Below, one piece after another: positions 25,870 through 28,492 of a DNA stretch of 35,465 bases (position 1 is the stretch's first letter; each line of letters starts with the position of its first letter). Source of the DNA: Alphaproteobacteria bacterium (lineage in GTDB: Bacteria; Pseudomonadota; Alphaproteobacteria; Bin65); assembly GCA_021776685.1 (NCBI GenBank), contig JAJFFJ010000015.1, forward strand, positions 1-35,465. The letters run 5' to 3'. The notes beneath the pieces were generated by a model. That model saw nothing but the letters and a program-made list of their open reading frames with translations, ran no database searches and was not told the DNA's origin. Both the position numbers and the translations under genes were made by a program.

Positions 25870-26175
25870 ATGACCAAATTTCTGACAGCAGTTATTATGA
25901 GTGCCGGCCTGGCGCTGGCAGGGTGCGGCGACGATTCCGGCGGCGGCGGCGATGCCAGCGGCGGCATGGCGCAATGCGTCAAGAGCATGAATGAAACGTT
26001 CAAGGGCAAGGGCGCTCAAATCTGCAAATGCGCGTCGGACGCCGTTAAGGCGTCGAAGATCAAAGACGACGACAAGAAAAAGCTGCTCGCCAGTTTCACC
26101 ACCCAGGGCGTTTCGCCGGAATCACGCAGCGCCTATCTCAAGCTGGTGGGCAACTGCGCGAACAAAGCGAAATAA
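25870..26175 (+). CDS. Small CxC lipoprotein (copy 1)
   Basis: This 101-residue protein starts at an ATG with GGAG eight bases before it. It has a lipoprotein signal (LALAGC, Cys19), then a Gly/Asp/Ser linker starting CGDDSG. The mature domain has Cys36, the pair C52-K-C54, and Cys96, with an Asp-Lys pair (DDDKKKLL) 14 residues after Cys54. The same plan occurs in the proteins at 27589 and 28037. I know no family for it. Two disulfides in the periplasm, or metal or heme binding by CxC, are possible but not shown. CxxCH heme motifs are absent. Confidence 0.8.
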   Translation: MTKFLTAVIMSAGLALAGCGDDSGGGGDASGGMAQCVKSMNETFKGKGAQICKCASDAVKASKIKDDDKKKLLASFTTQGVSPESRSAYLKLVGNCANKAK

Positions 26176-26190
26176 GCGCAGAGACAGGAT

Positions 26191-26232
26191 GCGAGGCGCC
26201 GCCATACCCTTTTTGCCAGTGGGGTGCCTCGC
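26191..26232 (+). repeat. Imperfect hairpin between lipoprotein and antiporter genes
   Basis: GCGAGGC (26191-26197) pairs with GCCTCGC (26226-26232), with an inner ACCC/GGGT and a run of T in the loop region. No T-run follows the stem, so it may only slow or partly stop transcription. Confidence 0.4.
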
Positions 26233-26256
26233 CCCGGGGTCGACAGAGAACCAAAC

Positions 26257-26289
26257 ATGACCGACGTGACTGACGTATCTCCGGAATGA
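26257..26289 (+). CDS. Possible 10-codon leader ORF of the antiporter gene
   Basis: An ATG at 26257 opens ten codons (MTDVTDVSPE) whose stop overlaps the antiporter ATG as ATGA. Its own ribosome site is weak. It could couple translation, or be chance; the antiporter start itself has only a short CCGGA before it. Confidence 0.25.
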   Translation: MTDVTDVSPE

Positions 26290-27560
26290 CTTCGATCCTC
26301 GACATCATCGCCATCCTGCTGGGGCTGACCGCCCTGTTCGGCTGGCTGAACCATCGCTTTATCGGACTGCCGATGACCATCGGCATGGTCGTCTTCGGGC
26401 TCGTCTCTGCATTGTTGATATTGGCGGCGGATGCGTTGATCCCGGGCGTCACTATTGACGACGACCTGATCAAGTTTCTCAAAGGGGTCGATTTCTACGA
26501 CACCCTGATGAAAGGCATGCTCGGCTTCCTGCTGTTCGCCGGGGCCCTGCACGTGGATCTGAACGCCATGATCCGGCGGCGCTATGCCATCACGCTGATG
26601 GCGACCTTTGGCGTATTGCTGTCGACGGCGTTGGTAGGGGCCGGTGCCTGGCTGGTCTTCCAGGCGCTGGGCCTGGACGTCCCCTTCATGGTCTGCCTGG
26701 TGTTGGGCGCACTGATCTCGCCGACGGACCCGGTGGCGGTGATGGGCGTGCTAAAAATCGTCAAGGTGCCGCCGAGCCTGGAAGCAAAAATTGCAGGCGA
26801 GTCGCTGTTCAACGACGGCGTCGGCGTCGTGGTCTTCGCAATTGTCGTCGCTTTGGCCTTCCATACCGGAGCCAAACCGCTTGACGCCGCAGACGTCGCG
26901 ATCCTGTTCATCAAGGAAGCTGCAGGCGGCGCAATTCTGGGCATCGTCACTGGCGGCATCGTTCACTACATGATGCGCGGCATCGACGAATATGTAACCG
27001 AGATCATGCTGACCCTGGCGCTGGTCACGGTCACTTACGCGGTCGCCCTCCAATTGCACCTGTCGCCGTTGATTGCGGTTGTCTGCGCCGGCCTTCTGAT
27101 CGGCAACATCGGCTCGGAAAAATCCATGAGCGAGACGACCCGGGAGCATCTGCACAGCTTCTGGACCCTGATCGACGAGATATTGAACGCGATCCTGTTC
27201 CTGCTGATCGGGCTTGAGGTGGTCTTGTTGCAATTCGATCTGGCGCCGTTTGTCGCCGGCCTGATTGCCATTCCCCTGGTCCTGCTGGCAAGGTTCCTTA
27301 GCGTCGGCGCGTCGGTTGTGATGCTCCGGCCATTCAGCCGCTTCTCGGAGGGTGCGATCTGGGTGCTGACCTGGGGCGGCCTGCGGGGCGGCATTTCTAT
27401 CGCGCTGGCCCTTTCATTGCCCGAATCAGGGGACAAGGCGACGCTTCTGACGGTTACCTTTGTGGTCGTGGTATTCTCTGTGGTGGTGCAGGGTCTGACG
27501 ATTGCGCGGGTGATCCGCCGGGTTGTGCCGCGCAGCACCGAAGAGCCTGGTGGCACGTAG
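26286..27560 (+). CDS. Na+/H+ antiporter, CPA1 family (NhaP-like)
   Basis: A 424-residue inner-membrane antiporter with about twelve helices. The CPA1 ion-binding pair Asn176-Asp177 lies in GESLFNDGVGVVVF, and the unwound helix GALISPTDPVAVMGVL is upstream (Asp148). LLFAGALHVDL and WGGLRGGISIALALSLP are further family blocks. It exchanges Na+ (or K+/Li+) for protons and helps with pH or salt stress. No large cytoplasmic C-terminal domain is present. A small CxC secreted protein gene begins 28 bases after the stop and another lies before it, so they may be made together. Confidence 0.92.
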   Translation: MTSILDIIAILLGLTALFGWLNHRFIGLPMTIGMVVFGLVSALLILAADALIPGVTIDDDLIKFLKGVDFYDTLMKGMLGFLLFAGALHVDLNAMIRRRYAITLMATFGVLLSTALVGAGAWLVFQALGLDVPFMVCLVLGALISPTDPVAVMGVLKIVKVPPSLEAKIAGESLFNDGVGVVVFAIVVALAFHTGAKPLDAADVAILFIKEAAGGAILGIVTGGIVHYMMRGIDEYVTEIMLTLALVTVTYAVALQLHLSPLIAVVCAGLLIGNIGSEKSMSETTREHLHSFWTLIDEILNAILFLLIGLEVVLLQFDLAPFVAGLIAIPLVLLARFLSVGASVVMLRPFSRFSEGAIWVLTWGGLRGGISIALALSLPESGDKATLLTVTFVVVVFSVVVQGLTIARVIRRVVPRSTEEPGGT

Positions 27561-27588
27561 GCAAAGCCGGGCATCGATGGGAGGTCAC

Positions 27589-27924
27589 ATGGCCACAGGC
27601 AGCATCCCAATCCGGCTGGTGGCTCTCGCCGGCGCCCTGGCGATCCTTGCGCCCGGCGTGACGTCAGGCCAAACCCGTTTTCTGGCGCGGTGCGGCCTTT
27701 ATGCCGGTTCCCAGACCACCCTCCAGGCACGGCCACATGCCAAGGCGATTTGCCAGTGCTATGCGGACCGAATCCGCGCCGCCCGCGACATTCCGGCAGC
27801 CGATAAAAGGCGGCTTTTGCAGGTGCGGCCGGGGCCCAAGGGCCGTATATCAATTGCCACCATACAGGCTATGGAGCGCATCAACCGCCAGTGCTGGCAG
27901 CAGGTGCGGCGCAAACGGGGATAA
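27589..27924 (+). CDS. Small CxC secreted protein (copy 2)
   Basis: From the ATG at 27589, with GGGAGGT just upstream, the protein has 111 residues; in-frame codons before it lie in the antiporter tail. A signal peptide (LVALAGALAILAPGVTSG) lacks a lipobox Cys, so it would be freed by signal peptidase I. The mature part has Cys35, C55-Q-C57 and Cys102, with Asp72-Lys73 15 residues after Cys57, the same plan as the lipoproteins at 25870 and 28037, although basic and otherwise divergent. It is probably co-transcribed with the antiporter. Function unknown. Confidence 0.72.
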   Translation: MATGSIPIRLVALAGALAILAPGVTSGQTRFLARCGLYAGSQTTLQARPHAKAICQCYADRIRAARDIPAADKRRLLQVRPGPKGRISIATIQAMERINRQCWQQVRRKRG

Positions 27925-28036
27925 CCTCGGTGTAAGGAAGGCTTAACACTGACAGCCCCTTTGCCTTGCGCCCACTGGACCGCACCGGTATGCCTGTAAA
28001 GGCAGATTCTTCCCCACGAGACTTTCGGAGACCACA

Positions 28037-28492
28037 ATGAGCATCAAATTCGTGATCGCGGCCGTCGCGGCCAGCTTCCTCGTCGCCAGTTGCGGCGATG
28101 ACTCTGGTTCCGGCGGTGGCGGCGGCGGCACCGCGAGCGGCGGTTCCGGCATGCAGGCCTTTGTCAAAACCTGCCAGGGCCAGATGGAAAAGCAGATGGG
28201 TTCAGCCAAAAACCTGGAAAAGCTGCCCAAAGATCTGAAAGACAAGGTTATGGGCGCTGCGCGGGACATGTGCGGCTGTATCGGCAAGGAAGTAGAGGCT
28301 TCCAAGGGCATTTCCGCGGCCGACAAGGCCAAGGTATTCGCCATGAAGGATTTCAAGGCCTCTGCCAAGCCGGACATCTCTGACGCCTCCAAGAAGGCCT
28401 TCCAGGATGTCGGCAAGAAGTGCGCCGGCAAGATGATGGGTGTCATGATGCAGGTCATGAAAAAGGCCCAGGAGCAGATGAAGAACAAGTAA
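28037..28492 (+). CDS. Small CxC lipoprotein (copy 3)
   Basis: A 151-residue lipoprotein (lipobox LVASC, Cys19) with GGAG six bases before the ATG. It continues CGDDSG as in the protein at 25870, then a Gly-rich linker. The mature domain has Cys46, C79-G-C81 and Cys129, with Asp96-Lys97 15 residues after Cys81. It is Lys-rich and ends with a Met/Lys helix (VMMQVMKKAQEQM), possibly a coiled coil. A strong terminator follows directly, so the transcript ends here. It may have its own promoter in the 112-base gap before it, but only a poor match is visible. No known family is recognised. Confidence 0.8.
   Translation: MSIKFVIAAVAASFLVASCGDDSGSGGGGGGTASGGSGMQAFVKTCQGQMEKQMGSAKNLEKLPKDLKDKVMGAARDMCGCIGKEVEASKGISAADKAKVFAMKDFKASAKPDISDASKKAFQDVGKKCAGKMMGVMMQVMKKAQEQMKNK

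Follow-up and report, generated by a model that had tools for sequence, protein, structure and literature searches.

Three short genes that flank an antiporter gene in the window (the whole 35,465-nucleotide stretch of alphaproteobacterial DNA analyzed here) code for small exported proteins with cysteines in a common arrangement. The locus raises the questions of whether these proteins, here named A, B, and C, are related, what their common domain might do, and whether they serve the antiporter that they surround.

Organization of the locus

All four genes are on the forward strand. Gene A (25870 to 26175) codes for a 101-aa predicted lipoprotein with a four-Cys domain and is followed by the gene for a CPA1-type Na+/H+ antiporter (26286 to 27560), by gene B (27589 to 27924), whose 111-aa product is exported and arginine-rich and has the four-Cys domain, and by gene C (28037 to 28492), which codes for a 151-aa predicted lipoprotein with a glycine-rich linker and the four-Cys domain. 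Signal sequences are present in all three small open reading frames (ORFs). The lipobox pattern [LVI][ASTVI][GAS]C after a hydrophobic stretch, as read from the sequence, is matched by A (LAGC) and C (VASC), each with its lipobox cysteine at residue 19, and is absent from B. The remaining cysteines are at residues 36, 52, 54, and 96 of A, 35, 55, 57, and 102 of B, and 46, 79, 81, and 129 of C, giving the common pattern C-x(15-32)-CxC-x(13-14)-DK-...-C with spacings from the CxC to the last cysteine of 42, 45, and 48 residues, respectively. The preliminary description of this locus had reported three exported proteins with a C...CxC...C framework, an Asp-Lys pair 14 to 15 residues past the CxC, and a lipobox in two of the three, and it is accurate on each of these points.

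Plausible Shine-Dalgarno sequences precede A (GAGGAG) and B (GGGAGG), the latter just 5' of the ATG at 27589 that is taken as the B start, the listed TTG at 27523 being a mechanical extension; the GC3 values of the three genes (0.73 to 0.79) resemble those of neighboring genes. An HpcH/HpaI aldolase gene lies upstream of A on the opposite strand, and a SIS-domain gene (gmhA-like; PF13580) lies downstream of C, followed by an ORF that is hldE-like from its sequence reading only. The C terminus of protein C is a Met-rich helix (28420 to 28489, KMMGVMMQVMKKAQEQM) that other family members lack. After C, at 28510 to 28545, an inverted repeat seen by eye (GGGCGGCC...GGCCGCCC, then TTTCC) is a possible candidate terminator between C and the gmhA-like gene; it does not appear in the list from the promoter and terminator scan, whose values are within about 1.5 standard deviations of those for shuffled sequences and so are uninformative about co-transcription.

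Relatedness of proteins A, B, and C

Judged by profile comparisons, A, B, and C are diverged members of one undescribed, lineage-restricted family. Single-protein searches give the first links: A finds a paralogue, D, on contig C129 (E = 3e-7), B finds the forkhead-associated (FHA) domain protein E on contig C62 (E = 0.002), and C finds E weakly (E = 0.06), while a contig search with C alone as query returned no relative, and one with profile A2 gave no sufficiently conserved stretch. A profile built from the domains of A to E then found three previously unseen genes in tandem on contig C71 (E = 1e-5, 1e-3, and 0.03) and single genes in a second genus of the same GTDB family, g2 (E = 3e-6 to 5e-5). 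With each protein left out of the profile in turn (Z = 10,000), the E values are 6.9e-8 for A, 4.9e-7 for B, and 6.9e-8 for C, and all of A, B, C, D, E, G, H, I, and J score at 2e-6 or better; a profile lacking A, B, and C altogether still recovers C (1.1e-7), A (2.8e-7), and B (3.5e-5). Across 2,000 shuffles that kept the cysteine positions fixed, no shuffled sequence scored as high as any real one, so the signal exceeds the cysteine pattern alone. Membership was defined by a significant leave-one-out profile score together with all four cysteines, which are kept in 14 of 14 aligned members.

Pairs of members are only about 20 to 35% identical, and the gene tree has deep joins without resolution, so A, B, and C are not claimed to have arisen as tandem duplicates of one another; the earlier view that the copies are diverged rather than recent is supported, as is its expectation that a profile would retrieve further homologues with all four cysteines. 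That unrelated secreted helical proteins came to share this cysteine spacing by accident is scarcely credible: the low pairwise identity and the unresolved tree are what such convergence would predict, but the cysteine-fixed shuffles fall below the real scores, and a profile blind to the additional members found them.

The identical CGDDSG that opens mature A and C had been pointed out earlier; it is not a family mark. A pattern search of the genome for this start gives six sites, those of A, C, and D among them. However, a lipoprotein without the four-Cys domain at locus L061 (about 1339 to 1839) begins CGDDSGSG, and another at L065 (about 1279 to 1782) begins CGDD; for the sixth site, at L064, the script shows no ORF with the motif. 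By this sequence comparison, the CGDD start is a habit of lipoprotein N termini in this genome, and the common CGDDSG was set aside as evidence of kinship because it also opens the unrelated L061 protein.

Members, anchors, and genomic positions

The window's genome (4.5 Mb in 158 contigs) contains at least eight supported members, A, B, C, D, E, G, H, and I; the earlier reading thus saw about a third of the family, with five more supported members in the same genome. They are displayed in several ways, with A, C, D, and G as lipoproteins, B, H, I, and J non-lipidated, and E joined to a membrane-spanning FHA protein. D, on contig C129, is a lipoprotein with the four-Cys domain. E, on contig C62, has an N-terminal FHA domain (PF00498, E = 1.2e-14), a transmembrane segment, and the C-terminal four-Cys domain; its extracytoplasmic domain has no Pfam match, and tblastn of E against plasmids found nothing. 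E is the one supported protein of the family with the FHA architecture. FHA-domain membrane proteins are a known class that E resembles, whereas A, B, and C lack the FHA domain. On contig C62 (L025:1808 to 5789, about 6807 to 10788), three consecutive genes code for FHA-domain proteins that are membrane-tethered in appearance, with F in the middle and E last. F ends in a C-CxC-C-like stretch, but its leave-one-out E value is 60, and it was not counted as a member.

G, H, and I form a tandem on contig C71 (L021:2469 to 4895) after a major facilitator superfamily (MFS) transporter gene, from which an indolepyruvate oxidoreductase-like gene is divergent; the protein coded by the latter contains a TPP-enzyme C-terminal domain (PF02775) and is 77% identical to its g2 counterpart. 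Among g2 genomes, six of seven have one family member each, and in all six its start is about 230 to 260 bp from the divergent oxidoreductase-like gene. The same divergent layout and spacing were seen in five of five named metagenome-assembled genome (MAG) loci found by contig search (Rhodospirillaceae or Alphaproteobacteria), some of which are probably from the same genomes as the g2 six; one of these MAGs, Spongia_Bin9, is named after a sponge. Because the oxidoreductase neighbor is kept both in g2 and with G, H, and I in the window's genome, this is likely the ancestral place of the family, and the copies at the antiporter locus seem to have dispersed there later. The g2 orthologues are under purifying selection, with dN/dS values of 0.10 to 0.28 (about 0.2).

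No credible member was found outside the GTDB family among 385 genomes of the class (profiles A2 and A5) and 398 of the phylum (profile A3), these sets being samples with about 13 first-look candidates scored per genome, and sparse or more divergent members may occur more widely. Eight hits outside the GTDB family (G402, G543, G368, G154, G241, G171, G047, and G374) were read one by one and rejected because they are frames with stops, lie inside other genes, or are proteins without C-CxC-C.

Predicted fold and disulfides

AlphaFold models of C (m5692ab8fe12b) and B have pLDDT values of 76 and 75; both were built from one shared sequence set (14-row alignments), so they are not fully independent and confidence in them is moderate. 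The helices come in the same order in both: helix 1 holds Cys1 within it or at its end, helix 2 holds the CxC, a short helix starts at the Asp-Lys region, and Cys4 is in the long last helix. These models of divergent members thus point to the common helical fold that the preliminary description had proposed looking for. The Asp-Lys pair itself fares less well: it is present in A, B, and C, but it is not family-wide, being Asp-Arg in E and Asn-Lys in H and having no equivalent in G and I. This variation fits the start of the short helix better than a catalytic or metal site.

Each exported domain has exactly four cysteines besides any lipobox or signal-peptide cysteine, and the window's genome codes for DsbB (PF02600, E = 9.5e-34). 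The cysteine count, the helix positions, and the presence of DsbB make two structural disulfides the likeliest reading. Residues i and i+2 of a helix face opposite ways, so Cys2 and Cys3, two residues apart on one helix, would lie on opposite sides, each reaching a different neighboring helix. The domain can thus be pictured as an extracytoplasmic helical unit of 70 to 100 residues in which helix 1 carries Cys1 and helix 2 carries Cys2-x-Cys3, followed by the short helix from a DADK-like stretch and the long last helix with Cys4; one CxC cysteine would bond to Cys1 and its partner to Cys4, so that three helices are stapled together, and DsbA/DsbB would form both bonds. Some members display the domain as lipoproteins, others as unanchored periplasmic proteins, and E places it after a membrane-spanning segment whose cytoplasmic side bears the FHA domain.

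Comparison with known proteins

Searches of Pfam, NCBIfam, and PHROGs at permissive thresholds gave only chance hits, and the match of PDB by sequence to the amyloid precursor E2 domain (E = 1.3) is likewise chance, in agreement with the earlier remark that no named family fits. Foldseek with the models of C and B found nothing under E = 1.9, and the best VIA-align Z scores, 6.7 for C and 3.2 for B, are background for helical bundles.

The closest known system in general character is the LprI domain family (PF07007, formerly DUF1311), which includes ScwA and Mycobacterium tuberculosis LprI and whose members are likewise small, helical, exported or lipid-anchored, and have four cysteines. In the 14 aligned sequences and the models, the present family too combines export and a helical fold with four conserved cysteines, but PF07007 gave no hit at E ≤ 10 for A to F or for the 14 aligned domains, and the likeness is a general resemblance, not proof of kinship. 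The cysteines of ScwA (C30, C100, C237, and C259) also include no CxC and span the whole protein, unlike those of this family. Salmonella ScwA, which is helical and resides in the periplasm, combines an LprI domain with four cysteines in two stabilizing, DsbA-dependent disulfides (PMC7933661). This experimentally established case of two disulfides in a small, helical protein of the periplasm lends support by analogy to a similar arrangement in A, B, C, and their relatives.

Possible roles of the domain

Apart from the cysteines, there are no other conserved polar residues in the family, and this, together with the varied anchors, leads us to favor a binding or sensing role, although the role may be purely structural. 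The variety of display suggests that the domain is an envelope module for binding or sensing and neither an enzyme nor a subunit of the antiporter. On the models, the family is probably built on a portable helical module that works outside the cytoplasm, is stapled by two disulfides, and is carried on varied anchors. A more specific version, in which the lipoprotein and soluble forms recognize a ligand from the envelope or a host and the FHA form signals across the membrane to a Ser/Thr-phosphorylation pathway, is improbable; if true, the paralogues would be a diversified receptor set in uncultured, partly sponge-associated Rhodospirillaceae-like bacteria.

The preliminary description had instead raised a metal or thiol role, for which there is no specific evidence, and exactly four cysteines per domain fits structural disulfides better. 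It is rather unlikely that the CxC and the other two cysteines, with the Met-rich tail of C, make up a copper or soft-metal site in envelope buffers or sensors. CxC is a common metal-binding motif, C has 13 methionines (several in its last helix), and the top VIA-align match for its model is the Cu(I)-bound periplasmic protein 7vw1, which is similarly small and aligns over 84 residues at a root mean square deviation of 5.8. However, the Z of 6.7 is below the level that the tool's own note treats as meaningful for helical bundles, and the Foldseek E value is 7.4. A and B have few methionines (4 and 2, respectively), the family has no conserved Met or His set, and no metal-handling gene was recognized beside A, B, and C.

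CxC motifs can also be redox active in other proteins, and the pair here might cycle between dithiol and disulfide in an oxidoreductase- or chaperone-like manner. This seems improbable, since Cys1 and Cys4 vary no more than the CxC does, the all-helical models have no thioredoxin fold, and no Pro or His is conserved near the CxC.

The antiporter as neighbor

The antiporter is a member of the Na_H_Exchanger family (PF00999, E = 3e-60); against the NCBIfam CPA1 equivalog it scores 164 bits, under the cutoff of 279.6. That A, B, and C are its accessory or sensory subunits, or parts of an ion-stress operon, is very unlikely. The three genes flank the antiporter gene on one strand, and B begins 28 bp past the antiporter stop, but 110 bp separate A from the antiporter gene and 112 bp separate B from C. 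Within the same GTDB family, the antiporter has one close orthologue (G008, 69% identical); there a methyltransferase gene takes the upstream position of A, and the downstream side lies beyond the contig end. The six g2 genomes keep a family member with no close antiporter orthologue. Other paralogues lie by FHA genes and the oxidoreductase-like gene. The conserved linkage expected of a set serving the antiporter is thus not seen, and the association is probably accidental, the antiporter being a neighbor rather than a functional partner.

Implications

Three "hypothetical proteins" thereby become part of a defined family with a core of four cysteines and two expected disulfides. The locus is also a warning that neither a common CGDDSG after the lipobox nor an adjacent transporter is evidence of common function. 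With at least eight diverged, differently anchored copies in one genome against a single copy in the sister genus, and with one copy joined to an FHA domain, the family offers a handle on envelope-protein diversification in an uncultured lineage.
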